From Prevotella sp. oral taxon 475 (lineage in GTDB: Bacteria > Bacteroidota > Bacteroidia > Bacteroidales > Bacteroidaceae): a stretch of DNA of 64,000 nucleotides. The translations under genes were made by a program, and so were the position numbers. Under the pieces are notes generated by a model, which worked only from the letters and a program-made list of their open reading frames with translations, ran no database searches and had not been told where the DNA came from. Positions 40,054 through 58,331 of this stretch are shown piece after piece; position 1 is the stretch's first letter, and each line of letters starts with the position of its first letter. Where the stretch lies: NCBI RefSeq assembly GCF_018127805.1, contig NZ_CP072334.1, forward strand, positions 2,272,001-2,336,000. Direction: 5' to 3'.

Positions 40054-41538
40054 TTAAATCTCGACCGACCGGCCCGCAGCTTGTGCCTTTTTCACCCACT
40101 GCGGTACGACCGTCTTGAGGAATTTCTCCTTATCGGCGTGACGTTTCTTCATGTCCAAACCGATGTAAGCCTGGGCTTTCTCTTTGGTGGAGATGTCGGG
40201 CATGGGCACATCTCCCGTGAAACCGTGTTGTGCCAGCACCTTCGAGATTCTCAATCGAGCCTGATTGGCATAGTCCAAACTATGCGAAAGGATGCGTATC
40301 ACCTCTTGTGGAGCATGGAAAGAAGCTCCATGGGAAGCCACAGCAAAGTCCCAACGCCACTGACTCTTCCGCAACAACTTCAGCACCGGCTCCATTTCCT
40401 TCGCCGAAGCCCCCTTGTCCCAAGCAAACTTCGCCTCGATATGCGCCGTAGCCAGTTCCTGTTCGGCTCGGTTTCTGATCTCGTTGCACTTGCGTTGACG
40501 TTCGTAAACATTCTGCCGAAGCGTCTCTGCGCTCTGCCGATGACACGTTTGACAAGTGCGTTCGATATGCGCCAGCGGACTCATAATGTGGTGATCAGTG
40601 TATTTCACACCACCTTCGTTGATGTAAGGCATGTGACAATCGGCGCAGGAAAGCCCACGTTGCCCATGAATACCCATTTTATGAATCTCGTAACCAGGGT
40701 GCTGTGCTTTCAAGATAGGAGCCTTACTGAGCGCGTGAGTGTAGTCGGAATAGTTTTGTGCATCGAAATACCGTTCGATGGCCTCTACCGTCATACCGCT
40801 GTCCTGGGGGAAAGTGAGATAGTTGGTACCCTTTTTAAAATAGTATTCGGTGTGACATTGTGCACAAACCAGCGATCGCATCTCCTGATGTGAAGCCTTG
40901 TTCACATCCTTCCCCACCCGTTGCCAAGCCTCGTAAAGGGCCGGACGGGCCGGTCTTAAATCCATCGTCTTCGAGTCGTGACAGTCCGAACAGCCTACGC
41001 TATTCATCACCTGATCTCCCCACTTCGACCATTGGGCCTGATAGAAAGCCCCCACGCCATGTTCTTTCATCAGTCGCGGAACGTCCGGACCCTTACAAGT
41101 CCAACACGTGCCGGGCTGCGGTTCCTTTCCTTCCGTTACGCCGGGAGCTCCCGTTCTCAGAATGGCGCGCATGTCTTCCACGGCATGATGGTGTCCGCGC
41201 GGTGTGTTATATTCCCACGAAAAAGCATAGCCCGCCCACAAAATCACCATATTGGGGCGTTGGGCCAACACGTCTACCGCGTTCGAACTATTAAATTCGC
41301 TCTTGAAAGTAGTGTCTGCCGTCTGCCGCCATGTTTCGTATTCGCGAGGAAAATCGCCGGCAAACTTCGAGTTGTCGGTAACGATTCCCTCCATCTTCAC
41401 CTTTCGATTGTTGAAGATACTCACCACCTCAGCCCTGCGTTCGAGCAGAGAAGAGACCAGCAGTCCAAGGATAAAGACGACAACCATCGAGCCGCCGAAG
41501 AGCATCCAGCCCTGCCAACGTTTTAATTGCTTTGCCAT
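40054..41538 (-). CDS. nrfA: Cytochrome c nitrite reductase, catalytic subunit
   Basis: Reduces nitrite to ammonium with six electrons in the periplasm. The 494 residues contain an N-terminal anchor/signal segment (residues 12-32), the catalytic heme motif CWTCK (145-149), whose Lys ligates the active heme, and four CxxCH motifs: CSDCH (183), CAQCH (225), CADCH (298) and CQTCH (329), for five hemes in all. The conserved Tyr follows CAQCHTEY. It lies 39 bases behind nrfH. Maturation needs the ResB/CcsA system encoded next, whose resB copy has a TAG. Confidence 0.97.
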   Translation of the reverse strand: MAKQLKRWQGWMLFGGSMVVVFILGLLVSSLLERRAEVVSIFNNRKVKMEGIVTDNSKFAGDFPREYETWRQTADTTFKSEFNSSNAVDVLAQRPNMVILWAGYAFSWEYNTPRGHHHAVEDMRAILRTGAPGVTEGKEPQPGTCWTCKGPDVPRLMKEHGVGAFYQAQWSKWGDQVMNSVGCSDCHDSKTMDLRPARPALYEAWQRVGKDVNKASHQEMRSLVCAQCHTEYYFKKGTNYLTFPQDSGMTVEAIERYFDAQNYSDYTHALSKAPILKAQHPGYEIHKMGIHGQRGLSCADCHMPYINEGGVKYTDHHIMSPLAHIERTCQTCHRQSAETLRQNVYERQRKCNEIRNRAEQELATAHIEAKFAWDKGASAKEMEPVLKLLRKSQWRWDFAVASHGASFHAPQEVIRILSHSLDYANQARLRISKVLAQHGFTGDVPMPDISTKEKAQAYIGLDMKKRHADKEKFLKTVVPQWVKKAQAAGRSVEI

Positions 41539-41577
41539 ATATCTTTTCAGTTTTTAGTTTCGTTGATTGGGATTCTT

Positions 41578-42177
41578 TCATTTTCGCCGCCCCAGCATGC
41601 CTTGCAGCCAGTCGGGCACAGGCGATTTGGGTAGTGGAACATCGGCTCCCGGTGTGGATGAGAGCGAATTCACCCCTCCATGGGGCACGTTTCGGTGGCA
41701 ATCCCAGCAGGCCATACCCTCGCCCCGCTTAGCCATCATGTAATCGATGCGCCCCGTTCGCACAAATTCTTGGTTGAGTTGCGTGTGGCAACGGATGCAA
41801 TTGTCCATAATCACCCCTGCACTGGCATCTTCGGCCGTGATGGCCTGCCGTTCATTGAAGGTGATAAACTTGCGCACATGGTTCATTCCGTCTTTCGCTT
41901 TAAAGAAATATTTAGCGAAGATATTGTTGTGTGGAACGTGGCAATCGTTGCAAGTGGCATCGCGTGCATGCGAAGAATGCATCCACGTGGCATAATAAGG
42001 TGTCATGATGTGGCAGTTGACACAGGCCGAAGGGTCGTCGGCCAGGTAGGTATGCATCCTGAGCAGATACATGAACAGTCCGCCCAAGCCCACCACCAAG
42101 CCTCCCATCACCAGCAAAAACATCTTTTGCCGGTAGGTCAATGCAGCCAAAATGGCATTCAGCTTCTCTTTTATCAT
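41578..42177 (-). CDS. nrfH: NrfH, membrane-bound tetraheme quinol dehydrogenase
   Basis: A NapC/NirT-type protein with one N-terminal membrane segment (KMFLLVMGGLVVGLGGLFMY) and four CxxCH motifs: CVNCH, CNDCH, CIRCH and CWDCH. It passes electrons from menaquinol to NrfA. Three in-frame starts exist (42228, 42186, 42177). The promoter at 42198-42228 predicts transcription from about 42191, which rules out 42228 and leaves only a few bases before 42186; 42177 (MIKEKLNAILAALTYRQK) is preferred. Confidence 0.95.
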   Translation of the reverse strand: MIKEKLNAILAALTYRQKMFLLVMGGLVVGLGGLFMYLLRMHTYLADDPSACVNCHIMTPYYATWMHSSHARDATCNDCHVPHNNIFAKYFFKAKDGMNHVRKFITFNERQAITAEDASAGVIMDNCIRCHTQLNQEFVRTGRIDYMMAKRGEGMACWDCHRNVPHGGVNSLSSTPGADVPLPKSPVPDWLQGMLGRRK

Positions 42178-42197
42178 GTTCGCCATCTTCTTTTTCG

Positions 42198-42228
42198 CAA
42201 AAATAGAGTTTATTTTTCTTCCTTCCAA
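42198..42228 (-). promoter_or_regulatory. Promoter of the nrfHA operon
   Basis: On the minus strand TTG (42226-42228) and TATTTTTG (42198-42205) are 20 bases apart, an exact match to the Bacteroidales promoter. Transcription would start about six bases further, giving a leader of only 5-15 bases. Confidence 0.7.
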
Positions 42229-42402: not shown

Positions 42403-43430
42403 AACGTGAGTTCGACGAATTCAGAACAATGCAAGCTGTGTATCAATGGTCCTTTGTAAATTGATACACGGTTTCTTTGGAAACAGGCAATAGGCAGCAA
42501 TAGCCCCTAATAAGTTGACGATGAAATTGTCAAAGCATCTATTTCCTGAGTGTTCCACTTGTGCAATGTTCTTAAGTTCATCATTCACCGTTTCTATAAT
42601 GGCTCTTTTTCTGAGTAAAAGTCTGTCTGAAACACTCATTAAAGCTCCTTTCATGTTACTTTTCAATTTGGTAATAAGTTGTATTCCGTCAACGAAAAGC
42701 CTTTGAAAGAGGTTCTTGCTGATGTACCCCTTGTCACCGAACAGCTTACCATATATAAAATCTATGAATGCTTTGTACTCCAAAGGCTTACGGTCATCAA
42801 CATCTCCCGGCGTTATCATAAAGTTGAGAAGTTCTCCTTTCTCATTGCAAATCAAATGCAATTTGAAACCGAAGAACCAACCCATAGAGCATTTTCCTCT
42901 TTGGGCTATGCCTTTGAAAACTTTGTGAATATGTATTCTTTGGTTCTTGCAGACATGCAATGATGTACTGTCAACAAAGCTTATGCCCGTGCATTTTCCC
43001 AACAGGACTTTCTTGATAAACAAGGTTAAGGGTACGGCTACATCCCTTTCCAATTCTACTAAACGGTTATAAGAAACAACATTGGGAAACAGATGGTGAA
43101 GATGCTTGCATACTTTTTCAAGATAGAAATGTTTAAAGCAGCGATAACCGGAGTCGTGGAAAAGAATCATTATCAGCATGACTTCGGCCTTTGACATCGT
43201 GGAACTGCGATGATATTTTCTTTTCCCGGCAGGTTTTAGCGTATATTTTGCCGTCATAGCATCAAAAAACTTGCAGAAGTCGTCTGCCATACAAAATATT
43301 TCAGTAATTTTGTCTTCGGTGATCATAGCGATTTTTGTTTGTAATTATTTGAATGTTAACACCTTAAAATTACAACAAATTTCGCTAATCACCAAATCTA
43401 TAGACACTTATAATTCATCGAACTCACGTT
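42403..43430 (-). mobile_element. IS982 family insertion sequence, complete
   Basis: About 1028 bp, bounded by inverted repeats AACGTGAGTTCGACGAATT (42403-42421) and, on the other strand at the right end, AACGTGAGTTCGATGAATT (43412-43430), with one mismatch. It contains one full transposase gene. TTATTT lies next to the left end (42397-42402) and again at 43429-43434, a possible 6-bp target duplication that overlaps the right tip, so exact tips are uncertain. The right end abuts the last codon of the thioredoxin-fusion gene. Confidence 0.88.
42421..43326 (-). CDS. IS982 family transposase
   Basis: 301 residues, full length for the family. The DDE catalytic residues are visible as Asp119 (FVDSTSLH), Asp198 (FGDKGY) and Glu245 (IIETVNDELK). 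The N-terminal region is helical and DNA binding. It appears intact, so the element is probably active. A truncated copy of the same element lies at 55833-55964, identical over the first nine codons. Confidence 0.93.
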   Translation of the reverse strand: MITEDKITEIFCMADDFCKFFDAMTAKYTLKPAGKRKYHRSSTMSKAEVMLIMILFHDSGYRCFKHFYLEKVCKHLHHLFPNVVSYNRLVELERDVAVPLTLFIKKVLLGKCTGISFVDSTSLHVCKNQRIHIHKVFKGIAQRGKCSMGWFFGFKLHLICNEKGELLNFMITPGDVDDRKPLEYKAFIDFIYGKLFGDKGYISKNLFQRLFVDGIQLITKLKSNMKGALMSVSDRLLLRKRAIIETVNDELKNIAQVEHSGNRCFDNFIVNLLGAIAAYCLFPKKPCINLQRTIDTQLALF

Positions 43431-44583
43431 ATTTTATCATCTTTTGAATCATCAATTCCAGCTCTTCCGATTTAGGTCCCACGACCTGTTGTGGCAATCC
43501 CTTTGCGGGAATCATATATAAAGTAGGTAAAGCTCCGATGCCCAAATCCTTGGATAATTGTTGTTCTGTATCGTAATTGACTTTGAAGAATCGAATCTTT
43601 CCCTTATACTTTTCTGCTAACCGGTTGAGTAAAGGAGAGAGCCGTTTGCAAGGAACACACCATGTTGCCCAGAAGTCTATCACCGTGGGAACAGAGTCTT
43701 TATAGGCAAATTGATGATGGGTGGTATAGTCCCAGATATGATTCAAGAAGTAGGTTCGCCCTATTTCCTCCACCTTGCCATCCGTCATTATCGGTTGCTT
43801 TTCGACAGATGCGTCATAAGACGGCGCAGAAGAGTCGAAAGATTGGAAGTAAACGGCCGATTTAGTAAAGTCTATTGAAAGCAAGCCATGCCGCAACAGA
43901 TCGCGCCCAAGATAAGAATGAGCGGGCTGATTCGTTCTGACCGACACGGTCTGAATTGACGTGTTAGCGATTCGGATTGTGCAAGAATCCCCCTTCCCGA
44001 CACGTTGTAGGTCATCGGGCGTCAGACAAAGAAGCGAAGAAAAATCCAATGAAATGGGCAAAGCGTAATCCTTTCCATCAATAGAAACAGGTATCTTTAC
44101 CTCCTTTTCTGGTTCTGTAAGCAATCTAATCCGATTGCTCAATTTAATAAAACCGGGTCTGTAAGGGCTGGAAAAGGTTAGTTTGTGTTGCTTGGAATCG
44201 ATTGTCAAGATTACATTCCGCAGCATGTCAAGTCCCAATACTCCCACAACCTTACTCGTTCGGAAGGCCAACGGCCTCGTCGTATATGGAAAAATCCGTT
44301 CGTGGGCATACAGACTCTGCCCCAAGACGAGGGTGTGCGGAAGGGCGGGAGTAGCCTCTTTAGGAAGTGTTTCGCTAAACAAAGCCGTTTCTTTGGACAC
44401 ACTTAACACGAACAAAGCATCCCGACCATCCATTTGCAAAGTAACGGCTATGGAACCGTCATCCAACTGCTGATAGTCATAAGTTTCCTGAAGAGAGTTG
44501 GCCGATTGAGCAAACACGCTCGAATGTGTCGACAACAAACCGACCAAAAGGAAAAGAATAAACTTGAAAACACGCATAATCAT
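43429..44583 (-). CDS. Degenerate retropepsin-like lobes fused to thioredoxin
   Basis: 384 residues with a signal peptide (to about residue 25, SVFAQ). Residues 35-250 follow the layout of the upstream retropepsin-like paralogue (shared VGVLGLDMLRNV flap-like segment, YRPGFIKLSN against YRPKGLKLSD). The first DTG is lost (SVS at 61-63) and the second reads DFS (180-182). The last 110 residues are a thioredoxin domain with WCVPCK (308-313) and cis-Pro353 in ALPTLY. It begins four bases behind the paralogue. Thiol exchange in the periplasm coupled to a substrate-binding pepsin-like scaffold is the likely role. The stop codon is completed by the IS982 end. Confidence 0.8.
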   Translation of the reverse strand: MIMRVFKFILFLLVGLLSTHSSVFAQSANSLQETYDYQQLDDGSIAVTLQMDGRDALFVLSVSKETALFSETLPKEATPALPHTLVLGQSLYAHERIFPYTTRPLAFRTSKVVGVLGLDMLRNVILTIDSKQHKLTFSSPYRPGFIKLSNRIRLLTEPEKEVKIPVSIDGKDYALPISLDFSSLLCLTPDDLQRVGKGDSCTIRIANTSIQTVSVRTNQPAHSYLGRDLLRHGLLSIDFTKSAVYFQSFDSSAPSYDASVEKQPIMTDGKVEEIGRTYFLNHIWDYTTHHQFAYKDSVPTVIDFWATWCVPCKRLSPLLNRLAEKYKGKIRFFKVNYDTEQQLSKDLGIGALPTLYMIPAKGLPQQVVGPKSEELELMIQKMIK

Positions 44584-44587
44584 TTGT

Positions 44588-45748
44588 TTAACGCCGATGA
44601 ACAGGAATATCGAACTTCCGATTCCCTCGCTTCATCGTAATGATGGTTTCTGACGAAACAAGCCTATCGAAGATGTCAGAAATCGTTGTTTCACTCAACA
44701 GAAGGCGAGTAATATCTTTCCCATTGACGGCAACAACCTCATCACCGATGTTTAATCGGTCAGTCAGAGGTTCCCAAACCGCGGTTATTTCAAACCTTCC
44801 GTGGGCAGGAAGAATACTCACATCCCAGATGGGAGCTGCCTTCGCGAGATCCGCGGAAGCCTCTTCGTAGGGCTGAAAATAAAACCGTCCACGAGGATAA
44901 TCAATCGTTACGACACCGTATTTCAGCAATTCCGCGCCGAGTATTGTTGGCACATTGGGGGCGACAAGGCACGTAGCATTCTGAAAAGACTTACCACCCA
45001 GCGCGAATTCGCCCAGCTTAACCTGCTTCAAAGGCTTGGCTTCACCCAGCCCTTCAAGGCCTGCGCCCAACGTTCCTCTACCCTTCCGAACGACCGTTGC
45101 GGCCTGGGTCTGCGCTAAAAAAAGGTAATCCTTTTCGCTCATCGTAAGCAATTCGGGCACTCCTGTGTCGAACATGACCTGCACGGACGCGCCTGAAAAC
45201 GACAAAGGAAAGTTCACATGCCACGTCTCCGAATAAGCTAACGGAATGCCATCGCTTAGCTTCAGTCCCTTCGGACGATAAGGATAATAGAGGCGCAACT
45301 CACCTTTTGCCCCGTCCAAAGCCATGACAACATCCTTGAAGGCGTCACCGCCGAGGATTCCGACTACACCCAGTTCCCGAAATCCCTTGATATCGGGTAG
45401 CGCAATCGTAGTAAGCGACAGTTTCAGATTACTTCCAATCTTCACCTCGGGCAACCTTCCCATCGAATACATATTGGCCTTGCCGTTCATGTCGGCCGTC
45501 ACCTTGCTGGCTCCGGTCAGCTGTCCTCCCATCGCCTTTGCCTCCTCCCAAATGGTAGCGGTCTGCCCTCCGGTGTCCAAGATGTATCTGTATACCACCT
45601 GATTGACCGTGACAGGAACGATGATGCGTCCATATTTCATTTCATACCGTATCGTGTCGGCATACCGTTTGGTCGAAAGATCTTGCGCGACAAGCCTCAA
45701 CGGCAACAGCAGCAAGACGACGGAAAGAATATAATTGCGGCCTTTCAT
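44588..45748 (-). CDS. Two-lobed retropepsin-like aspartic protease with PDZ-like end
   Basis: 386 residues with a signal peptide (residues 1-22, ending VAQ). Two retropepsin-like lobes each keep the active-site motif: ILDTGGQ (DTG at 58-60) and MFDTGVP (DTG at 194-196), with flap-like GILGGDAFKDV at 130-140 and ILGAELLKYG later. About residues 310-386 form a PDZ-like domain (NIGDEVVAVNGKDITRL). It is the only protease-like member of this operon with intact catalytic residues. It overlaps the pseudo-subtilase gene by four bases, so the products are likely made together. Confidence 0.8.
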   Translation of the reverse strand: MKGRNYILSVVLLLLPLRLVAQDLSTKRYADTIRYEMKYGRIIVPVTVNQVVYRYILDTGGQTATIWEEAKAMGGQLTGASKVTADMNGKANMYSMGRLPEVKIGSNLKLSLTTIALPDIKGFRELGVVGILGGDAFKDVVMALDGAKGELRLYYPYRPKGLKLSDGIPLAYSETWHVNFPLSFSGASVQVMFDTGVPELLTMSEKDYLFLAQTQAATVVRKGRGTLGAGLEGLGEAKPLKQVKLGEFALGGKSFQNATCLVAPNVPTILGAELLKYGVVTIDYPRGRFYFQPYEEASADLAKAAPIWDVSILPAHGRFEITAVWEPLTDRLNIGDEVVAVNGKDITRLLLSETTISDIFDRLVSSETIITMKRGNRKFDIPVHRR

Positions 45749-47472
45749 TTTTTCGATTGCTCGCGTTTGATGGCTTCCTTTACGGCATTTGCCACATTGA
45801 CAATGCCTCCCGAAAGGCAGAGATCAGAATATAGGAACAGGTCTTGAACCTTACGGTCGTTCACCACCATCGTCTTTTCAACCTCCATATCGTTCGGTTT
45901 CGTTGCGGTCTCGTTGAGCAATCGGCGCACATCACCAGCCTTCAGCGAGGGGAAGTAGGCTCTTATCAAGGCGGCAGAGCCTGCCAACGACGCAGCGGCC
46001 ATGCCCGTTCCGGTAGCCAATCCGTAGGTGTTTGCCACGCCGGCCGTATAGATTTCCTTCCCCGGAGCATGGATATCCAGTTCTTTCCGACCGAAGTTCG
46101 CACTCAGCGAAGGTTTGCCTTCCTTGTCGCTCGGAGCCACAATCATCAGGTTGCCGAGTTCATGTCCGGGAATCATGAAGCGATTCGGATAATACAATGT
46201 GTGCCCCAAGTCCTGTGAACTCTCAGTAACTGGCGCAATCACAAGTACGTCCTTCTGCTCCGCATAGCGCAAAGCGTCTGCTATCCAGCTACGTTCTGAA
46301 GCAGGAAACAACGTGTTTTGAGAAGGCAAAACGACAACTTTCGCCCCATGATCGACCGCGTATCGCATGGCCAAAGCCACGTCTTTGAGATACGGATCGC
46401 CGGCGGTCGCAACACGCAAAGGCATGACAAGCGCTTCGTTACAAATGCCGTCGCCGCCGATTCGGTTATCTCTCACACCGGCAATGATACTCGCCTCCAT
46501 GGTTCCGATGTTGGCATCTTCCGTCAATAGCTGCCCATTCCCGTAACGGGTGTCGCGAATATCATTCGGTTTATCACCCACAATTTCCTTTCGGTTGTCG
46601 TCACCATGCTTCTGAAGATACGCTTCATACGCCTGCTGAGCCTGACGGATAGGTGTTCCTTGCATTTCTACCTCATATATCTTTTTCCATGATTCCGTCT
46701 TGGCAATAGGAAAACTATAGCCTAATATCATGAAAGACATATCTGCCAACGAATCCTTTGGCGCGTTCTTATCATAGAGAGTCTCGAACTCTTTTAGCGT
46801 TATCTCTTGACCGGGAAAGCGCTGGCGGAGTTTCGCGTCAAAGATCTTGGTATAGTGGCGCACGACTTTGGCTGCCAGAATGCCTGCGTATCGTGAGGCG
46901 AGTGGCGACTCATACACAATCGTATCACGATAATATCGGTATTCTTTCATATTCCGTGGCGCATCTACCTGCACCATCTCGTCGCCGTCGAACTTATAAA
47001 ACCGCTTGCCATCAGACACATAGTCGGCATATTTCTCACGCAATCTGAAATACTCCCGGTCACCTTGATTCAGGGTAAAGTTCATCGAACGATTTGTGCC
47101 CGCCTTGTCTTTACCTCCCAAGAAGTTCCAACCGACAATGTCGTCTACCAGTCCATTACCGTCGTCATCGCGCCCATTAAGTTTCTCTCTTTGGTTTTTC
47201 CAGACCTTACCTTTCAAATCCTCGTGGCTCACATCCAGGCCGGAGCCTATCAAGGCCACGACGACGCGCCGGGCTTTACGCCCTTTCAGCAATTGATAGG
47301 CCTCGTTCGCCCCCACTCCATAGACCTTATCAGCCGTAGGAGACAGGTTATACCAGTCAAGATCACTTTGTTTATATTCCTGTGCCTTCATCGTTTGCGT
47401 CATCGAAGGCGCAAACAATAAAAGCATTATCGATAGGATTGCGTTATTTACGTTCATGTGTTTCATTTTCAT
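45745..47472 (-). CDS. Subtilisin-family (S8) homologue lacking the catalytic triad
   Basis: 575 residues with a signal peptide (to about residue 31). The fold signature is clear: VVALIGSGLDVSHEDLKGKV, GTMEASIIAG, VLVIAPVTESSQDLG, YPNRF and GTGMAAASLAGSAAL. Every catalytic position is changed: Asp to Gly76, His to Ile322 (Met325 replaces the second His), the oxyanion Asn to Thr416 and Ser to Gly490. The frame is intact and the surrounding fold residues are kept, so it is a selected pseudoprotease and not a decaying gene. The insertion at about residues 117-320 is typical for this phylum. A binding or chaperone role is inferred. Confidence 0.88.
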   Translation of the reverse strand: MKMKHMNVNNAILSIMLLLFAPSMTQTMKAQEYKQSDLDWYNLSPTADKVYGVGANEAYQLLKGRKARRVVVALIGSGLDVSHEDLKGKVWKNQREKLNGRDDDGNGLVDDIVGWNFLGGKDKAGTNRSMNFTLNQGDREYFRLREKYADYVSDGKRFYKFDGDEMVQVDAPRNMKEYRYYRDTIVYESPLASRYAGILAAKVVRHYTKIFDAKLRQRFPGQEITLKEFETLYDKNAPKDSLADMSFMILGYSFPIAKTESWKKIYEVEMQGTPIRQAQQAYEAYLQKHGDDNRKEIVGDKPNDIRDTRYGNGQLLTEDANIGTMEASIIAGVRDNRIGGDGICNEALVMPLRVATAGDPYLKDVALAMRYAVDHGAKVVVLPSQNTLFPASERSWIADALRYAEQKDVLVIAPVTESSQDLGHTLYYPNRFMIPGHELGNLMIVAPSDKEGKPSLSANFGRKELDIHAPGKEIYTAGVANTYGLATGTGMAAASLAGSAALIRAYFPSLKAGDVRRLLNETATKPNDMEVEKTMVVNDRKVQDLFLYSDLCLSGGIVNVANAVKEAIKREQSKK

Positions 47473-47535
47473 CCTGCTCCTCTAATCGAAGCATCCTTTA
47501 TGTTTATTCTTGATTCCGATACCTTCTGCCAGCAC

Positions 47536-48423
47536 TTAATCACTCATATTACCGATACGCTGCAAGTCTACATTGAATTGTTCTTTGAAATACCTAATGA
47601 CAATATCATACTTCCGTCTTACCAATTCATGACTCAGGACTCCATCCGAAGCCTCAAGTTTGGCCAGCGGAGTAGACACAATAGTCTTCAAATAGTCGAA
47701 CCAATCCTCACGCTCGCTGCTCTTATGAGCGCTATTTAAGAATCCTTCTGCCAATGAACCCTCAATATTAGAGCCGTAAGCAGATACCGCGGTAAAAGCT
47801 TGAGGAATACTTTCGCGCGCAGTTCCCTTGTTTACATCGGGATAGATACGTCGTAATAAGAGCGTACACATATCCTGTCTGAATTGGTCTTTCTGTTCTT
47901 TGGTCATCTGCGGAAGCTCGCTGCTTCCCCAATTCACCGCAAAATACTCGTAGCCTTCAAAGGCATTGATACGCTTGTAGTCCTCTTCTGTGGGTACTTC
48001 GGTATATCCACCTTCCAGATAAAAGAGCTTTCCGCAAAGCAGAATGCGCAAGGGTAAATGCTTTTTCAGGAACTCGGTAGGGAATAAATCTAAGAACTGC
48101 GTCTTCAATAAAGACACTTGTTCCCCCACCTGTGCTTCTTCCGGCAACGCGTAAAGATAGCCCTCATCCTGCATTCTGTTCTTGCTCCACAGGAAACTTT
48201 GTGTAGATCCCCATGCAAAATCAGTATCGCTAAATTTATAAAGCAACAAGGAACCTGTCTTATCATACACCTCCCGAATTGTTTTATCATAAGGATGATT
48301 ACCTTGAGGCAGGGTGTGCGGGCCTACGATTTCTTCAGAACCATTGGTTGGTTTGACCGGATCTTCATTTCCACAGGCGGCCAATGTCAACGCCAAAGCT
48401 ATATATAAAATACTCTGTTTCAT
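47536..48423 (-). CDS. SusD-adjacent lipoprotein, metallopeptidase-like without HExxH
   Basis: 295 residues with a lipoprotein signal (LTLAAC, Cys17). Its place directly behind susD, its size and its ending (RRKYDIVIRYFKEQFNVDLQ) resemble the putative zinc-binding metallopeptidase lipoproteins (Peptidase_Mx1) that often follow susD. No HExxH motif is present anywhere. The Mx1 relation is a weak inference from the C-terminal segment and the position. If right, the zinc site is lost. It lies 13 bases behind susD and 63 before the pseudo-subtilase. Confidence 0.55.
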   Translation of the reverse strand: MKQSILYIALALTLAACGNEDPVKPTNGSEEIVGPHTLPQGNHPYDKTIREVYDKTGSLLLYKFSDTDFAWGSTQSFLWSKNRMQDEGYLYALPEEAQVGEQVSLLKTQFLDLFPTEFLKKHLPLRILLCGKLFYLEGGYTEVPTEEDYKRINAFEGYEYFAVNWGSSELPQMTKEQKDQFRQDMCTLLLRRIYPDVNKGTARESIPQAFTAVSAYGSNIEGSLAEGFLNSAHKSSEREDWFDYLKTIVSTPLAKLEASDGVLSHELVRRKYDIVIRYFKEQFNVDLQRIGNMSD

Positions 48424-48436
48424 ATCTTCGTCATTC

Positions 48437-49936
48437 TTATTTATCTAATTCAGGATTCCGTTCTCTCACTTCGCGAGGGATAGGCAGCACATATTTGCTA
48501 CTGTTCTTTTCCAAGCGAACGGTCTGTACCTGCCCTTTTACAATCGAGAAAGTATGCTGGAGCGCGGGCATTCCCAATCGCCGCAAGTCAAACCAGCGAT
48601 GATCTTCAAAACTGAACTCAAGTCTTCGTTCATCCAAGCAGGCTTTCAACAGTTCCTCTCCATCCATTATATCCAGCTTTACATACGGATCTGTGAAGCG
48701 TGCCTCACGCAATGTATTGAGATCGTTCAACGCCAACCTACGCATTTCTTCATCTTTGGTAAGCAGATACTTACGAGCATAAACCTCAGCTCTGTTCAGA
48801 TAAGCTTCCGCCACACGCATTCCTTTGGTAGGATTCTGGATAACATTATCACTTTTACGGCCTACCAACAGATGCTTTTCAGGGAAAAAACCATTCATAA
48901 CAAGGTAAGCATTGTAGTAAGCCTCACGCCGAATGTCGTTGGAAGCATACTTGTTTTCCAGTTCCTTGCTCACGGTGAAGGCCGGTAGCTTACCCGGATC
49001 GATATAAAAGTTTACTCCCATGAAATATGCCGAATACTCGCCGTTGACCGAATAGCCCCAGATCAATTCCGGACTACCGCTGTTATACACTCCTCCTTTT
49101 GATATATCATACATTACGATGCCCTGCCAATCGTCATACGAATAGAATTGACGAAGCTTCAAAAGCGTGGGCTTACGTTCTATAACGGAAGAACTGTATT
49201 TGATAACCTCGTCCCATTTGCCCTCATAAAGATATACCCGAGCCAACAACATGTCGACAAACAACGGCGATACGGTGTACACGTTATGAGTTATCGGGCC
49301 ATTCTTGGCAAAGAGGTTACGTGCTTCAAGAAGATCTTTTATGATTTGTTCGTACACTTCAGCCACGCTACTGCGCTTCGGGAACTCATCTTTCACCGTA
49401 GACTTCAGAACAAGTGGCACGCCGGGAGCCGCGTTGGCCTCTGTATTCTCCGTGTTGTAAGGTGGCGCGTATGCGTTGACAAGCATGAAATAGTAGAAAG
49501 AGCGCAGACTCAAAGCCTCGGCCTTGATACGTTCTTTTGCCTGTTCGGAACCCGTGACCAAAGGTAACTGATCAATGACAACATTACATCCATTGATCCA
49601 ATGATAGAGATTCTGCCATGAATTATACCATGGCACATTGTTTTTCTGCAGCTGTTCAAACATGTCTTCAGCCCAAGTAAAAACCGGTCCACCACCAAGA
49701 AGCATCGTTTCCTGACCTGTGGCGTCGGAGTAATTGCTTTCTACATTATCTGTCAACAACTCAAGATAAGGAAAGATGGGCGTACGAGAAGCATAACCCT
49801 CACCCAACAGCAGTTCTTCCAAATCGGTTGTAGTACTTGGTCTTACCTCGTCTTGACTGCTTTCCGTAAGAAAATCGCTACAAGCCGTCAATAACAAGGC
49901 TATCGATAACGCACCTAAGAATATGATATTTTTCAT
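48437..49936 (-). CDS. RagB/SusD family outer-membrane lipoprotein
   Basis: About 499 residues from the ATG at 49936 (MKNIIFLGALSIALLLTAC, lipidated Cys19); ATGs at 49945 and 49948 are alternatives. The N-terminal DFLTESSQDEVRPSTTTDLE and C-terminal RLEFSFEDHRWFDLRRLGMP segments are diagnostic of SusD-like proteins, which form the lid over the SusC channel. It follows susC closely. The cargo could be glycan or peptide; protease-like neighbours point to peptide. Confidence 0.93.
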   Translation of the reverse strand: MKNIIFLGALSIALLLTACSDFLTESSQDEVRPSTTTDLEELLLGEGYASRTPIFPYLELLTDNVESNYSDATGQETMLLGGGPVFTWAEDMFEQLQKNNVPWYNSWQNLYHWINGCNVVIDQLPLVTGSEQAKERIKAEALSLRSFYYFMLVNAYAPPYNTENTEANAAPGVPLVLKSTVKDEFPKRSSVAEVYEQIIKDLLEARNLFAKNGPITHNVYTVSPLFVDMLLARVYLYEGKWDEVIKYSSSVIERKPTLLKLRQFYSYDDWQGIVMYDISKGGVYNSGSPELIWGYSVNGEYSAYFMGVNFYIDPGKLPAFTVSKELENKYASNDIRREAYYNAYLVMNGFFPEKHLLVGRKSDNVIQNPTKGMRVAEAYLNRAEVYARKYLLTKDEEMRRLALNDLNTLREARFTDPYVKLDIMDGEELLKACLDERRLEFSFEDHRWFDLRRLGMPALQHTFSIVKGQVQTVRLEKNSSKYVLPIPREVRERNPELDK

Positions 49937-49953
49937 TGAAGCCATCATTAAAA

Positions 49954-52900
49954 TTACAAACTAAAATTCAAAGTAAGACTATAACTCGGCGTAATCGGCT
50001 GAGAGCCGGTAGCTACTTCGGGGTCTACGCCGTTATAATCTTTGCTTACTATGATAAACGGATTACTAATAGCACCGCTGACAGAGAGGTTTTTCAACAT
50101 CATCTTGCTTGCGACTTTCGCGGGTACTGTATAGGACAAAGAGATGTTATTACACCGTAAGAAAGAGGCATTTACCACCCGTGCCGTAGAATAATTGTAC
50201 ATTCGGTGACGATACTCCGTTGATCCATCAGGCAAATTCACCAGCGGTATGTTTCGATAAGGGATGGTAGGAATCTGGGTATGCGCCTCATCACCGGGCT
50301 TCTGCCAACGCCGCACCATGTCTTTAGACAAATTGGAATAGGCCGAAGGTGTGCTGTTATTCAAATAATCTTCGTCAAACAAATCTGTAAGGAAGCGCTT
50401 TCCACCGAGCGCAATACTGAAAGATGTAGACAAAGTCAATGTCTTCCAACGCAACACGGTCGACATACCACCCGAGAAATCAGGCTCCGTTGTTCCGGCA
50501 TAGGCCATATAGGTTGTAGCGTCGAACGGATTAGCACCTTCCTCTTTGGTTGGAATCTTAAACAAAGGATACCCTCCTTGCGAGTCAAGTCCCGTAAAAT
50601 TCCATGCCCAAAAGGCTCCTACCGGATAACCTTTCTTATGAACGGATCCTCCCGCTGCGGCTCTCCAATTCTGATTTTCGGCGATAGTGGATCGTATTTC
50701 GTTGAAATTCTTTGCCGTGTTAAGCGAAAAACTCCACACCCAATCCTTAGTTCTCACAGGCGTTACGCTTGCCGTCAACTCGAAACCTCGGTTGGTCATG
50801 CTGCCACCGTTGATTGGCATGAACAAAACTCCATACTCATAAGGCACGGCTTTAGAAACAATCATGTCCGAAGTATGCTTCGAATAATATTCCGCACTGA
50901 AGGCAATACGGTTTTTCAATACACCGAAATCAATACCGAGGTTGATACTTTTCGTCTTTTCCCAGCGCAGATTGTCATAAGGTAATGACTTTATCTTCAG
51001 GATATAACGTCCTGTTCGGATATCAATAAACTCACGACCACGCCCTAACTGCGCTATCAAGTCAGGGCCACAGTTCTCTACCACATTGCCCTGCCAACCG
51101 TATGAGCCACGCACATTGAAATCACTAATCCACGACAGATGCTTAATCCATGGTTCATTGATGATGTTCCAACGGGCACCGACAGACCATACGGGCAGGA
51201 AACGGTTGCGTTCGTCCTGCCCAAAACGGTTGGACGCGTCCGAACGGACACTGGCCGATAATATGTAACGTTCGGCATAGCTGTACATTCCTGTGGCAAA
51301 CAGGCCGACAGTATTGATTTTACGGTCGATAACGGAGTTAGAGAAGTTATCGTATAGTTCATTGGCTATCAAATTGGAACTATTCAACGGGTCTACAATT
51401 TGACGTGGCGGCAACATAATAGATTTACCCCGCTGACGAAAATAACCATAAACGGTCGTATTATATCCGTCGTATTTATTGCTGCGCATTTCACCTCCGG
51501 CCATGAAACTCAGTCGATGTACATCGTTTAAAATCTTATTATAAGATAAGGTAGCACGCAAAGTATAGTTCTTGTTACGGCTTTCCGTTGTGTTCAACTC
51601 GCCTCCATGCGGCAAACGAGACTTCTTATATTCCAGGTCTCCAGGCCCATAAAGCCCGAACTCATAGCCTCGCAGATTGGTGATAAAAAAGCTCCGCTCA
51701 TCGGCATACGACTCTCCAACCACGTTGGAGGTGTTGTATCCGAGCAGACCTTCGAAGCGTAAGCCTTCAGCGATCATCCATCTCAGGTTGGCAGAGAGTG
51801 CCATAGTGTTCGTCGTATTGGTATTTCCGGTATTATTAAGTTCATTGATGATATTATACATTCTGCGGTTGGCATCCTGTGTTTTAGCATAATAAAACAA
51901 GGAACCATCTTCATTGTATGCCGGAATAGCACGATTTATCGTTCGGGCATAGTAGTAAGGATCTACGCGGAAGAAACCATGGGTCTCATGAGAAGCCGCA
52001 TTCAAGCGCACACCCAAACTCACCTTACTACTGATTTTGGTATCAATGCTCACCGAAGCGCTATAATTTTTCGAATCATTACCTTTGGATATACCATTAG
52101 TAAACGAACCATTAAGTGATGCATAGTAATTCATATTGCCCGATCCTCCACTGAGACTTACACCATGATGATGGCTCATCGAATTGCGAAACAACTCTTT
52201 AAACCAATCTGTATTGTTGGAACGTGCCTGTCTTACCCCATCCACAAATTGCTGATAGGTAATCTCTTTACGCAAATATTGCCCTAAAAGTCCTTCATAT
52301 CCGATTCGTTCGAGGGGGCGATTGGCCTCACTGATAAGTCCTCTTCGATAAATTTCACTTGAAACATCGATACGTTCCGAGGAATTCATCAGATTCATCC
52401 GGCTGTAGTGTATACGTGGAGTGACGGATATACCACCGCTGTAATTCACCGAAATACGTCCGCTCTTACCTTGCTTGGTTGTAATAACAATGACACCATT
52501 GGCCGCTTTCACGCCATACATCACTGTCGCTGCGGCATCTTTCAATACAGAAATCGTCTGAATATCATTCGGACTTAACCACGAGATAGAATTACCTACG
52601 AAATTCTTAATCATATCGAAATTGTCCTGATTGATATTGCCCAAAGCATCGAGGTCGCGCGTTTTAAATGGCAGCGGGTCTTCTTGAATGATACCATCGA
52701 CCACCCACACCGGTTCCTGATTACCCAACAGAGTAGACGTTCCACGCACGCGTACCTTTGGAGTGGCACCTACCAATCCGCTCGTATTCAACACACTCGT
52801 ACCCGACAGCTTTCCCTGCAACATCTGTTCGATACTCTTTTGTCCGTCATAGAAAAGATCTTCTATCTGTACTGTGTTGGCCGAACCGATCATTTCGTTT

Positions 52901-53592
52901 TTTCTAATGCGCTGATAACCGGTAACGATGACCTCGTCGATGAGCGACACGTCGTCGGCCATCGTCACATGGAGCATTTCCTCACCGCGCCATGCCACCG
53001 TCACAGCCTTCATGCCGGCATAAGTAAATTGCAGAACAGGACGCTTCGTATAGGTTTCTATCCTAAAAAAGCCTTCCAGATTGGTCTGCGCGCCTTCCGA
53101 TGTCCCTTTAATAAAGACGGTAACTCCGGGCAAAGGCTCTCTCATATTTTCGGATAAGACCTTACCTTGAATCACGACCTTGCCTTTTCCCGCCTGATTT
53201 CCGGACAAACCACTTTGCGACAAGCCGTCTGAGGCTCCGCCCGTTTGGGCAGATGTCTGCGTGATATTGATAAACTTACCATTCACGGAATACCTGAAAG
53301 GCTTGTTTTGCAGCAAGAGAGAAAGGACTTTCTCTACCGTTTTGTTTTTTAGTTGTACGCTAACCGTATAACCTTGCACCTCATCATACGTGAACAAGAC
53401 CTTGAATCCGGATGCTTTTTCAACTCTTTTCAGCGCGTTGGCCAATGATTCATTACGACATTCCACCGTAATTTTGTCGGTCAACGATTGTGCTTCAACA
53501 GCAGCAACGTTTCCCCAAAAAGCAAACAACGCCACAACAATCCTGCAAGCAAATCTACTCAACGCTTGCCGTTTTTTTAGTTTATAACTCAT
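49954..53592 (-). CDS. SusC/RagA family TonB-linked outer-membrane receptor with STN domain
   Basis: 1212 residues. After the signal peptide (ending VEAQ near residue 35) come an STN domain (residues about 38-110, ITVECRNESLANALKRVEKA), a carboxypeptidase-regulatory-like domain (about 140-220, IQGKVLSENMREPLPGVTVF), the plug with DEVIVTGYQRIRKNEMIGSA and the SusC signature segment, and a 22-strand-type barrel ending in SYSLTLNFSL. The STN domain signals to FecR, so this is a transducing receptor that reports substrate to the ECF sigma factor next to it. Confidence 0.95.
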   Translation of the reverse strand: MSYKLKKRQALSRFACRIVVALFAFWGNVAAVEAQSLTDKITVECRNESLANALKRVEKASGFKVLFTYDEVQGYTVSVQLKNKTVEKVLSLLLQNKPFRYSVNGKFINITQTSAQTGGASDGLSQSGLSGNQAGKGKVVIQGKVLSENMREPLPGVTVFIKGTSEGAQTNLEGFFRIETYTKRPVLQFTYAGMKAVTVAWRGEEMLHVTMADDVSLIDEVIVTGYQRIRKNEMIGSANTVQIEDLFYDGQKSIEQMLQGKLSGTSVLNTSGLVGATPKVRVRGTSTLLGNQEPVWVVDGIIQEDPLPFKTRDLDALGNINQDNFDMIKNFVGNSISWLSPNDIQTISVLKDAAATVMYGVKAANGVIVITTKQGKSGRISVNYSGGISVTPRIHYSRMNLMNSSERIDVSSEIYRRGLISEANRPLERIGYEGLLGQYLRKEITYQQFVDGVRQARSNNTDWFKELFRNSMSHHHGVSLSGGSGNMNYYASLNGSFTNGISKGNDSKNYSASVSIDTKISSKVSLGVRLNAASHETHGFFRVDPYYYARTINRAIPAYNEDGSLFYYAKTQDANRRMYNIINELNNTGNTNTTNTMALSANLRWMIAEGLRFEGLLGYNTSNVVGESYADERSFFITNLRGYEFGLYGPGDLEYKKSRLPHGGELNTTESRNKNYTLRATLSYNKILNDVHRLSFMAGGEMRSNKYDGYNTTVYGYFRQRGKSIMLPPRQIVDPLNSSNLIANELYDNFSNSVIDRKINTVGLFATGMYSYAERYILSASVRSDASNRFGQDERNRFLPVWSVGARWNIINEPWIKHLSWISDFNVRGSYGWQGNVVENCGPDLIAQLGRGREFIDIRTGRYILKIKSLPYDNLRWEKTKSINLGIDFGVLKNRIAFSAEYYSKHTSDMIVSKAVPYEYGVLFMPINGGSMTNRGFELTASVTPVRTKDWVWSFSLNTAKNFNEIRSTIAENQNWRAAAGGSVHKKGYPVGAFWAWNFTGLDSQGGYPLFKIPTKEEGANPFDATTYMAYAGTTEPDFSGGMSTVLRWKTLTLSTSFSIALGGKRFLTDLFDEDYLNNSTPSAYSNLSKDMVRRWQKPGDEAHTQIPTIPYRNIPLVNLPDGSTEYRHRMYNYSTARVVNASFLRCNNISLSYTVPAKVASKMMLKNLSVSGAISNPFIIVSKDYNGVDPEVATGSQPITPSYSLTLNFSL

Positions 53593-53651
53593 AAATGATG
53601 TATTTTAAGGTATCACCTATAGGATTAACGACCCAAATGAAATATCGGGCA

Positions 53652-54824
53652 TTAGTTTTTCTCTCTTTTTTTAGAAAGAACGATTTTGTTATCTTTCAAC
53701 TCGGCTTCGATATAGCTGAACGCGTTCAGGTTTTTCACAACCTGCGATATATCGGCATTGCGGTCGGCAATGAAGTGAAGACGATAGCTCATCAAGGAGT
53801 TATCGCAGATCTCAATGCTCACATTATACCATCTGCCGATTTCCTTCAGGATGTCAATCAGTGGCAGATTGTCAAAATAAAAATAACCGTCTTTCCACTG
53901 AATGTAATACTCCGTATCGACACAGGTCACGTTAAATCCTTCGTCATCGCTTAATGTCGCGTCTTCGCCGGGCTTTAATACGACTTTTTGACGGCTCGTT
54001 TTATTGCTTATCGCCACCGAACCCGACACCAAAGTCACATGATTGTCCGAGCCGGGATAAGCTTTCAGATTGAACTCTGTGCCCAATACACGGGTCAGAA
54101 TCCTATCGGTTTCTACGATAAAAGGATGCCGGGCGTCTTTCTTCACTTTAAAATAAGCTTCCCCTTTCAGTTTTACTCGCCTTACATCGCCCGAGAAACG
54201 AGCCGGAAATATCAACTTACTCTCCGCATTGAGCGTAACACTTGTGCCGTCGGAAAGAATCAGTTTATATGCTTTCCCACGAGGTGTAGACAACATTCGC
54301 ACCCCCTCCGCACGCGTCGAGGTATGTGAAAAATCGGCCCGTTCGTCATCAATCACCACCCCTTCGTCGTGATAGGCGAGTTCAATATCCTTCATCTGTT
54401 CGTCGGCTTTGCCCAACAAAATCTTCTGCGGGCGGTCTTCGGCCACGAAAGCCATCAGATGATCGGTAGCCGGCCGACCATCTAAATAGGAATGAATGCC
54501 CCATACCATTGCGACAACGGCAGCCGCCGCGGCGGCAACATACAACAATCTGCGGCGATAAGAACTCCGTAAACGGCGGGGCGCAAGCTCGGTAGCGCAA
54601 AAATGTTTCCAAGCTTTCGCTGTGTCAGGAGCTGGACTTTTCTCTCTAAGTCTTGCACAACGATAGCTCCACAACAAACGATACGCATCCTGCGAAGCTT
54701 TGTCAGACAGCAACGCGCCTATTTCGTCACCCGTCAACTCGTCCCAGTTATCTATCCGATTCACCACCTCGTGCTCTTCAGTAGCGTCCGTGTTCTGATG
54801 TAAATTATCAATATCCATGTTCAT
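53652..54824 (-). CDS. FecR family anti-sigma factor
   Basis: 390 residues: a cytoplasmic part of about 88 residues, one membrane segment (YVAAAAAAVVAMVWGIHSYL), a FecR domain (RMLSTPRGKAYKLILSDGTS to GTEFNLKAYPGSDNHVTLVS), and a DUF4974 end (FDNLPLIDILKEIGRWYNVS). It holds the sigma factor inactive until the STN domain of the SusC protein signals. It lies 15 bases behind the sigma gene and 59 before susC. Confidence 0.93.
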   Translation of the reverse strand: MNMDIDNLHQNTDATEEHEVVNRIDNWDELTGDEIGALLSDKASQDAYRLLWSYRCARLREKSPAPDTAKAWKHFCATELAPRRLRSSYRRRLLYVAAAAAAVVAMVWGIHSYLDGRPATDHLMAFVAEDRPQKILLGKADEQMKDIELAYHDEGVVIDDERADFSHTSTRAEGVRMLSTPRGKAYKLILSDGTSVTLNAESKLIFPARFSGDVRRVKLKGEAYFKVKKDARHPFIVETDRILTRVLGTEFNLKAYPGSDNHVTLVSGSVAISNKTSRQKVVLKPGEDATLSDDEGFNVTCVDTEYYIQWKDGYFYFDNLPLIDILKEIGRWYNVSIEICDNSLMSYRLHFIADRNADISQVVKNLNAFSYIEAELKDNKIVLSKKREKN

Positions 54825-54839
54825 TATATAATATAACGA

Positions 54840-55373
54840 TTATCGATTCTTTTTGGTTATCTTCCGGTTTGCATATTCTATAGAAAAAGATTCACGCAAT
54901 AATCGCAAACCTTTCATGACATGCTGCTTCACGCCACTGATTGAAATATCGAGCAAGGCCGCAACTTCCTTATAGGTATGTCCCTCATAAAAACATTGAT
55001 CCATTACAAAACGTGTACGTGCAGGCATTCTTTCCATCATTCGATCTATCAATTCCAGGTATTCCTCTTGCTTATCCGAATCCCATTCTATGCTGTGCCG
55101 GCTCATATCGAGGAAGAACTTTACATAGGCCGACTCTACCTTGGAATGTTTCAAATAGTCCAGGCAGCGATTATAGACACACTGCCGCAGATAAGAAGCG
55201 CCATATCGATTATGTGAGTAGGAGAAATCTTCCCACGCACGAGTAAAGACATCGTTTACCACATCTCGGGCCACTTCTGAATCATGCACTATATAAAGGG
55301 CATTATAATATAAAGGGGAATAATTTTCTTTGAATAATTTTTCAAATGCGCGTTCCCGGTCACGTACTCCCAT
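54840..55373 (-). CDS. ECF sigma factor (sigma-70 family, Bacteroidales FecI-like)
   Basis: 177 residues with sigma region 2 (FEKLFKENYSPLYYNALYIV, DVVNDVFTRAWEDF) and region 4 (MPARTRFVMDQCFYEGHTYK, EVAALLDISISGVKQHVMKG). It is expected to direct transcription of the downstream operon when released by FecR. A TATCTTTG box lies upstream, next to an isolated IS982 end. Confidence 0.93.
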   Translation of the reverse strand: MGVRDRERAFEKLFKENYSPLYYNALYIVHDSEVARDVVNDVFTRAWEDFSYSHNRYGASYLRQCVYNRCLDYLKHSKVESAYVKFFLDMSRHSIEWDSDKQEEYLELIDRMMERMPARTRFVMDQCFYEGHTYKEVAALLDISISGVKQHVMKGLRLLRESFSIEYANRKITKKNR

Positions 55374-55405: not shown

Positions 55406-55413
55406 CAAAGATA
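55406..55413 (-). promoter_or_regulatory. Candidate -7 box of the sigma/FecR/SusCD operon
   Basis: TATCTTTG on the minus strand, about 33 bases before the sigma-gene ATG. The -33 region comes close to the IS982-type inverted repeat at 55432-55450. Confidence 0.5.
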
Positions 55414-56256: not shown

Positions 56257-57480
56257 ATGGCAAGAAGCACATTCAAGGTGCTGTTCTATGTGAACGGCAG
56301 CAAGGAGAAAAACGGTATCGTCCCCATCATGGGACGTGTTACAATCAACGGCACGGTGGCACAGTTCAGCTGCAAGCGCACCATTCCGAAGGAACTTTGG
56401 GACGTGAAGGGCAACAGGGCTAAAGGCAAGAGCAAGGAAGCCATCGCCACCAATCTCTCGCTCGACAACATCAAGGCGCAAATCATCAAGCACTACCAAC
56501 GGCTTTCCGACCGTGAGGCGTTCGTCACGGCAGAGATGGTGCGCAATGCCTATCAGGGGCTGGGCAGCGAGTACGACACCCTGCTCAAATCCTTTGACAG
56601 GGACTGCGCCTCCCTGCTCAAGCGTGTAGGCAAGGACAGGAGCATGGGAACATACAAGGTGATGCTCAGGGCAAGGAACAACACGGAAAAGTTTATCCGC
56701 TACAAGTACAACCGCAGCGATATGTCGATGCTCGAACTCACCCCCGACTTCATCAGGGACTTCGCCGTGTACCTCAGCACGGTGAAAGGAAACAGGAACG
56801 CCACTATCTGGCTGAACTGCATGTGGCTCAAGGGCGTGGTGATGCGTGCGCACTTCAACGGCAAGATACCCAGAAATCCGTTTGCTCAGTTCCATGTCAG
56901 TCCGAACACGAAGGAGCGTGAGTTCCTTACGGAGGACGAGCTGAAGACGCTGATGTCGCACGAGTTTGCCGACAGCCACTCCGCCTTCGTGCGTGACTTG
57001 TTCGTCTTCGCCTCCTTCACCGCCCTTTCGTTCGTGGACTTGAAGGAACTCACCACCGATGAGATAGTGGAGGTGAACGGCGAGAAGTGGATAGTTGCGA
57101 AAAGACACAAGACGCATATTCCGTTCCAAGTGAAACTGCTTGATGTCCCCCTGCAAATCATTGACAGATACAGACCGTTCCAGAAGGACAACTCTATATT
57201 CGGGGACATCAACTACTGGACGGTCTGCAAGAGGCTCAAGAAGGTCATGAGCGAGTGCGGCATCACAAAGGACATTTCCTTCCACTGCGCAAGGCACGGC
57301 TTTGCGACATTGGCACTCAGCAAGGGCATGCCCATCGAGAGCGTGAGCCGCGTACTCGGACACACGAACATCGTAACCACGCAACTCTATGCGAAAATAA
57401 CCACCGAGAAACTCGACACCGACCTCTCCATGCTCGGCAGCAAGCTCAACGCATCATTCGGCAATATCAAAATGGCATGA
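56257..57480 (+). CDS. Tyrosine recombinase/integrase, IntDOT-like
   Basis: 407 residues: an N-terminal arm-binding part (residues 1-90), a core-binding SAM-like domain (about 105-205) and the catalytic domain (220-400). His343, Arg346, His369 and Tyr378 (HCARHGF, HTNIVTTQLY) are in place. The first catalytic Arg is replaced by Ser258 (FTALSFVDLKEL), as is known for IntDOT of CTnDOT, an enzyme that tolerates non-identical crossover sequences. The gene is at the edge of the element, as expected, and overlaps the next gene by four bases. Confidence 0.92.
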   Translation: MARSTFKVLFYVNGSKEKNGIVPIMGRVTINGTVAQFSCKRTIPKELWDVKGNRAKGKSKEAIATNLSLDNIKAQIIKHYQRLSDREAFVTAEMVRNAYQGLGSEYDTLLKSFDRDCASLLKRVGKDRSMGTYKVMLRARNNTEKFIRYKYNRSDMSMLELTPDFIRDFAVYLSTVKGNRNATIWLNCMWLKGVVMRAHFNGKIPRNPFAQFHVSPNTKEREFLTEDELKTLMSHEFADSHSAFVRDLFVFASFTALSFVDLKELTTDEIVEVNGEKWIVAKRHKTHIPFQVKLLDVPLQIIDRYRPFQKDNSIFGDINYWTVCKRLKKVMSECGITKDISFHCARHGFATLALSKGMPIESVSRVLGHTNIVTTQLYAKITTEKLDTDLSMLGSKLNASFGNIKMA

Positions 57481-58294: not shown

Positions 58295-58331
58295 CACGAT
58301 GCTATATATCAATCATTTAAGCAAGAAAGAA

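Follow-up and report, generated by a model that had tools for sequence, protein, structure and literature searches.

A putatively FecI/FecR-regulated SusCD operon of Prevotella sp. oral taxon 475 with protease homologues that lack catalytic residues

SusCD systems are known mostly for the uptake of glycans, and how importers of peptides process their cargo is little described. Here, we analyse a stretch of 64,000 nucleotides from Prevotella sp. oral taxon 475 (assembly GCF_018127805.1, contig NZ_CP072334.1, positions 2,272,001 to 2,336,000; hereafter the window), in which a SusCD pair and its putative regulators are encoded together with four protease-like proteins, three of them without the expected catalytic residues. 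A preliminary description, made from the sequence alone, recognized eight genes in one direction with short gaps or overlaps, and the coordinates, domain matches and open frames all agree with it. The eight open reading frames occupy 43429-55373 on the minus strand and are all open, with intergenic gaps of 4-63 bases and a single 4-base overlap (ATGA) between the subtilase and aspartic protease genes. From upstream to downstream, the features are as follows.

55406..55413, minus strand: TATCTTTG, candidate promoter element just upstream of the sigma factor ATG, fitting TAnnTTTG
54840..55373, minus strand: extracytoplasmic function (ECF) sigma factor, TIGR02985-like (123.5 bits; cut-off 126.4), with sigma-70 regions 2 and 4 (Pfam/NCBIfam)
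53652..54824, minus strand: FecR-type anti-sigma factor (FecR and FecR_C over the Pfam cut-offs)
49954..53592, minus strand: SusC/RagA TonB-dependent transporter (TIGR04056, 670 bits; cut-off 368.25) with an N-terminal STN domain, over its cut-off
48437..49948, minus strand: SusD/RagB-type lid lipoprotein (PF14322 and PF07980 over cut-off)
47536..48423, minus strand: Mx1-like lipoprotein without HExxH, a pseudo-peptidase (Peptidase_Mx1, PF15890)
45745..47472, minus strand: subtilase homologue without triad (pseudo-S8), with a signal-peptide-like N-terminus (Peptidase_S8, 82.2 bits)
44588..45748, minus strand: retropepsin-like protein with two DTG motifs and a probable C-terminal PDZ domain (Asp/PDZ; Asp_protease_2)
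43429..44583, minus strand: pseudo-retropepsin fused to thioredoxin (AspTrx), WCVPC intact (Thioredoxin match in the C-terminal half)

Judged by these matches, this is a predicted SusCD/RagAB-type TonB-dependent import locus with FecI/FecR regulators and an STN domain. The SusC and SusD genes are five bases apart, and the sigma gene is placed alike in most related operons. We take TAnnTTTG to be the Bacteroides -7 element, which is the basis for reading TATCTTTG as a promoter.

In the window, the four protease-like proteins carry the residues, and the losses, that the preliminary description reported. The Mx1-like lipoprotein passes the cut-off of PF15890 (29.4 bits; cut-off 25.6), falls short of that of TIGR04549 (26.7 bits; cut-off 75) and has no HExxH; in our own reading of a profile alignment, the canonical HEFTH lies opposite PDVNK, in a region largely gapped in the Mx1-like profile. 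In pseudo-S8 the catalytic Asp, His and Ser positions are Gly, Ile and Gly. The Asp/PDZ protein keeps both motifs (ILDTGG and MFDTGV; PF13650, 45.0 against 24.3 bits) and from these is likely to be the one active protease that had been expected; the PDZ domain attributed to it stays below the Pfam cut-off (PF17816, 16.8 against 23.1 bits), as does the PDZ_6 match (E 3.7e-4) in a relative from Pedobacter sp. HMWF019. AspTrx has LSVSK and SLDFSS at the retropepsin DTG sites, with neither DTG kept. Its thioredoxin half is well matched (PF00085, 75.2 against 23.5 bits) and contains WCVPC, while its N-terminal half has no Pfam match and is homologous to the Asp/PDZ protein (114.7 bits). The two genes thus look like paralogues, with the thioredoxin of AspTrx in the place of the probable PDZ domain.

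Pseudo-S8 and AspTrx occur together in 28 loci including the window, in a mostly constant gene order, so that the co-occurrence of these families in other genomes is conserved. The loci come from Segatella, Bacteroides, Butyricimonas, another Odoribacteraceae metagenome-assembled genome (MAG), Bacteroidales bacterium CF, one Pedobacter and further genomes, and comprise the window, L039, L040, L059-L068, L185, L186, L240, L242, L244, L246-L254 and L256, with repeats counted once (L041=L066, L166=L257=L040, L241=L064, L243=L065, L259=L060). They are a sample rather than an exhaustive list, in which the window and L059 represent one species. Of the matches to the fusion protein described below, gene neighbourhoods were taken from 20 stretches, a set without G1194:C2, G1197, G1205 and several subtilases of 34-38% identity. 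Of the named matches, Segatella baroniae DSM 16972 (L059) is the nearest, with an S8 protein 99% identical and 97.0% DNA identity over 11,970 bases; a relative in the same genus (L185) has an S8 protein 72% identical with the same catalytic losses. The distribution is patchy: the window S8 protein has four matches at E <1e-100 in 295 genomes of the order, its own included, and four at 1e-60 in 301 genomes of the family, including its own and the variant in L187. The fusion protein of L065, described below, finds 12 matches at 1e-60 in 56 genomes of the family of Butyricimonas synergistica (G299), some of them multi-copy and one (G1232) with an intact subtilase; B. synergistica and genomes of its family hold several copies of the operon.

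The layout varies in detail. A TlpA-like gene lies between the Mx1-like and S8 genes in 20 of the 28 loci. The Asp gene is absent from L065 and L242, is split in L061, and in L256 comes after AspTrx, with the contig ending inside it; both D[ST]G motifs are present in all other loci. The L065 contig begins at the Mx1-like gene, about 3 kb separate SusD from Mx1 in L248, and in L040 (L166 of genome G106; 6642-15943 in L166) integrase-like and mobilisation-like genes, recognized by eye, lie between SusD and the Mx1-like gene. L067 has another S8 gene about 6 kb away, with His and Ser present and the Asp region cut off.

The triad of the operon subtilase is incomplete in all 28 loci, with Ser alone kept in L065 and L067, and the His and Ser positions vary freely among the pseudo-S8 proteins. 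A comparison of 13 pseudo-S8 with 21 active rows (L046 and L187 excluded) shows that pseudo-S8 lacks the NMSFGK stretch of the active relatives, which we take to be a substrate-binding strand as in subtilisins, that a new conserved motif with Gln385 has replaced it, and that invariant residues have been gained (e.g. Gln385 and Pro360, 13/13). The 13 pseudo-S8 proteins fall together on one side of a branch (100/100) in a tree of 56 subtilases; this tree was drawn from 102 S8 sequences, with two duplicates removed and 35 of the remaining 79 rows picked at random. A tree of 36 selected rows sets 14 (pseudo-S8 and L187) apart from five active operon subtilases (98/95). L187, from genome G873 of the window's family, has a subtilase reading S-V-N and no AspTrx. 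Subtilases with D-H-S intact are found in like-ordered operons without AspTrx (L078, L199, L200, L201, L202 and L258), and the triad is intact in 6 of 9 related operons without AspTrx, compared with none of the 28 with it; not counted among the nine are L096 (where an intact S8 gene lies 3 kb past a weak Mx1-like gene and an Asp gene was not found) and L044 and L047 (intact S8 near SusCD, no Mx1-like match). The subtilase therefore probably died within a pre-existing operon. Pedobacter cryotolerans (L067) is nested in the pseudo clade beside Bacteroidales bacterium CF (100/100, 36-row tree), which suggests that the pseudo-S8/AspTrx cluster moved between orders. Two subtilases in Mx1-like/TlpA/Asp operons read D-E-R (L245, 9252-10889) and D-E-K (L255, 9192-10829), with Asp kept, His replaced by Glu and Ser by Arg or Lys; here the subtilase seems to have died by a route of its own. 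A degenerate subtilase reading D-Q-G is also present in another genome of the order (L046, 13388-15097), with no match to the other operon families in that locus.

The claim that AspTrx lost its aspartates holds for the window and its nearest relatives, whereas most members of the family keep both. Among 118 aligned rows (105 proteins from databases, the window itself and 12 rows from operons, the window being among these once more), site 1 has Asp in 104, mostly as DLAG, with four gapped; site 2 has TW in 105, mostly as DTW, and as aligned none of the 118 has Gly after DT. In the ten window-type rows there is no Asp at site 1 (SVSK and similar) nor, in those printed and as aligned, at site 2. 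L248 and L251 have DING and DSW. CxxC is present in 115 of the 118 rows. In the Odoribacteraceae MAG (L065), pseudo-S8 (40-569) and AspTrx (583-985) form a single frame of 988 residues, joined by a short linker in the position expected for the second signal peptide; no Asp gene intervenes. This fusion suggests that the dead subtilase and AspTrx may act as one unit.

The loss of HExxH, which the preliminary description treated as a feature of this operon, instead appears to be a property of a wider SusCD class. HExxH is absent from all rows of two sets of Mx1-like proteins from pseudo-S8/AspTrx loci and related SusCD operons, 0/36 (two genes counted twice, L041/L066 and L040/L166) and 0/22 (20 genes, some repeating earlier loci). 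In canonical Mx1 proteins the H, E and H are invariant (7/7), and two of these seven are encoded in the window's own genome, each right after its own SusCD. Full-length SusC proteins of Mx1-like operons score 954-1580 bits against a window-clade profile and those beside canonical Mx1 500-744. The two groups of SusC are thus set apart by score, and a lipoprotein without HExxH is the mark of one SusCD lineage. Among 29 aligned Mx1-like sequences Cys17 is invariant and Glu20 is present in at least 90%, the acidic residue after the Cys presumably resembling a surface export signal. In L202 (1-20000), a FecIR-SusCD operon with canonical HExxH Mx1 directly adjoins an HExxH-free Mx1-S8-Asp SusCD operon.

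Within this HExxH-free lineage the downstream processing module varies. B. synergistica has further FecIR-SusCD-Mx1-like operons with varied downstream genes, including met-zincin genes of the DUF5117/DUF4953 type (cut short in L159, containing HEIGHTLGLMH in L160), an S9 peptidase (GHSGGG motif) with TlpA-type genes (L164) and TlpA-type genes (L161), and L187 has an M16 gene with HFLEH. Sister operons thus carry intact-looking S8, S9, M16 or met-zincin peptidases, often together with TlpA-type redoxin genes, and the peptide role suggested earlier for the window operon is consistent with this company. Two further B. synergistica operons of this type are followed by ABC-2 exporter genes (L162, 10277-13554; L163, 10512-13742), perhaps chance neighbours, with the Pfam run for this call made on L162 only.

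Comparison of orthologues points to maintenance of these genes. Between the Bacteroides loci L062 and L063, amino acid identity is 81% for sigma and AspTrx, 78% for pseudo-S8, 75% for SusC, 73% for FecR, 69% for Asp, 65% for TlpA, 58% for SusD and 43% for the Mx1-like protein, the last as expected of a cargo-facing protein. The non-synonymous rate (dN) is 0.13 for pseudo-S8 and 0.12 for AspTrx, and the ratio to the synonymous rate (dN/dS) is 0.05-0.10 for S8, Asp and AspTrx, a rough figure with dS near saturation. The corresponding identities are 74% (pseudo-S8), 71% (SusC), 65% (AspTrx) and 41% (Mx1-like) for L061/L062, and 59%, 50%, 47% and 45% for L039/L060. In every pair pseudo-S8 ranks first or close to it and the Mx1-like protein last, setting aside the Asp copies of L039/L060, which were not paired as orthologues. 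The conservation of pseudo-S8 and its new invariant residues argue that the fold is kept for some function.

We propose that this FecIR-controlled SusCD operon takes up peptides or small proteins that probably contain disulphides and are held, reduced and cut in the periplasm, a reading whose chances we put at about even. SusC, SusD and the surface Mx1-like lipoprotein would capture the cargo and take it in; the lipoprotein, having kept a peptidase fold and not the zinc site, should bind and not cut. The periplasmic dead subtilase and the dead retropepsin with its thioredoxin would form a receiving and holding unit, in which the thioredoxin, aided in most relatives by the TlpA-like protein, would reduce the cargo for cutting by the two-DTG aspartic protease. 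STN and FecR would relay the passage of cargo through SusC to the sigma factor. The proposal is built from gene set and order, residue losses and conservation, fold homology and one natural fusion, and from these we infer the substrate, the surface and periplasmic sites and the binding, redox and signalling roles. Neighbouring peptidases point to peptide as the cargo, and the predicted locations follow from the invariant Cys17 of the Mx1-like protein and the N-termini of S8, Asp and AspTrx, signal-peptide-like by eye. A narrower and more tentative version is that the receiver under SusC uses the two dead proteases as peptide-holding walls, in which a disulphide-bonded polypeptide is held, reduced by the thioredoxin and fed to the aspartic protease; counting the dead zinc-peptidase lipoprotein outside, protease folds would then have been converted into binding parts three times within one peptide 'utilisome'.

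Several observations weigh against the proposal. Triad loss with AspTrx is one main clade, and the 28 loci are not independent events. The absence of the Asp gene from L065 and L242 implies that cutting by Asp may not be essential, and in L242 another subtilase, this one with D-H-S complete, is encoded 1.4 kb past AspTrx. The TlpA-like gene is absent from 8 of 28 loci (the window, L039, L059, L065, L067, L185, L248 and L251), and there is no sigma/FecR match before SusC in L039 (2.9 kb) or L185 (4 kb). The fusion is known from one MAG contig (L065 = L243), with the nearest relative, G1205, ending at a contig end. AspTrx is less conserved in the second and third pairs above, the Mx1-like protein of L039/L060 evolves barely faster than AspTrx, and the mostly saturated dS leaves dN/dS rough.

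Decay in this strain, or sequencing error, could be suspected from the loss of catalytic residues in three genes and from the transposase and integrase genes flanking the operon. It is refuted by conserved orthologues: the losses recur in L059, in L185 and across families, and the frames are open and dN low. The preliminary description, which also argued against decay, had regarded intact orthologous operons as a sign of local loss. Such operons exist in part, in that six loci have an intact subtilase and five of these also intact Asp-protease motifs, but Mx1 lacks HExxH there too, and the losses in the window's branch are ancestral, not local. It is very unlikely that other residues have taken over catalysis, either the DLAG and DTW aspartates of AspTrx or a new set in the subtilase. 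The prevalence of those aspartates and the residues gained in pseudo-S8 would fit, but window-type AspTrx lacks the site 1 Asp and, in the printed rows as aligned, that of site 2, and free variation at the S8 His and Ser positions is unexpected for an active enzyme.

The dead subtilase and retropepsin could instead be sensors or allosteric partners that respond to bound imported peptide by switching either the FecR/sigma branch or the aspartic protease, much as the pseudo-proteases CspC and CspA do in spore germination. The L062/L063 identities, in which both exceed SusC as expected for fixed partners, the new conserved residues of pseudo-S8 and the fusion to AspTrx speak for this. We nevertheless find it improbable, as L065 and L242 keep both pseudo-proteases without the Asp gene, and FecIR-SusCD-Mx1-like operons without a dead S8 occur, so that signalling need not depend on it. 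There is a small chance that the cargo is not a nutrient peptide, and is rather a peptidic metallophore, a haem-peptide or an antimicrobial peptide, or that the system serves envelope protein assembly. FecIR control is common to iron uptake, and ABC-2 exporter genes, possibly mere neighbours, follow two Butyricimonas Mx1-like operons; however, the recurrence of four peptidase families (S8, S9, M16 and met-zincin) in sister operons and the several copies in B. synergistica and its family fit varied food peptides better.

Our search of the open-licence literature found no description of such an operon. RagAB of Porphyromonas gingivalis is a peptide transporter (PMC7782687, PMC11817032) and for BT2263-64 of Bacteroides thetaiotaomicron a complex with peptide is mentioned (PMC7782687); both resemble the window operon in the SusC/SusD pair, with peptide cargo here proposed. 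The available passages of these papers do not mention the pseudo-protease set found here, and an association of RagAB with peptidases and protein-binding partners is offered only as speculation in those of PMC11817032. The 'substrate import-associated zinc metallohydrolase lipoprotein' (TIGR04549/PF15890; PDB 4l7a, 9urd) differs from the window protein, which lacks HExxH, falls below the TIGR04549 cut-off and has SusC partners that separate by score. Closest in layout are the FecR-SusC-SusD-Mx1-like-TlpA-S8-Asp operons of Pedobacter sp. HMWF019 (L078), the G298 family (L199-L202) and G1232 (L258), alike in families, in order as far as the stretches reach, in lacking HExxH and in the two D[ST]G motifs of the Asp gene (with DSA instead at site 1 of L202); they differ in the intact subtilase triad and the lack of a retropepsin-thioredoxin protein. 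The CspC/CspBA pseudo-subtilases of clostridial spore germination likewise keep a triad-less subtilase fold as a working protein, but pseudo-S8 scores 23.5 bits against NF040808 (cut-off 675) and has another gene context.

These operons form a natural series, with the subtilase intact, partly dead, dead beside a dead retropepsin-thioredoxin, and the last two fused, which shows how proteases became components of a transporter locus that are apparently no longer catalytic. The series offers a testable model for pseudo-enzyme recruitment, with dead proteases kept as parts of a nutrient uptake system, and provides candidates for peptide uptake in Bacteroidales, for example in multi-copy B. synergistica.

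In the window, a DDE transposase gene (PF13612, 42421-43326) lies directly downstream of the operon, and a tyrosine integrase gene (56257-57480) and a DUF5906 gene (58299-59579) lie beyond its other side, so the operon is flanked by genes of mobile-element type. Genes for a cytochrome c552 (NrfA-type) and a NapC/NirT-type cytochrome adjoin each other at 40054-42228.

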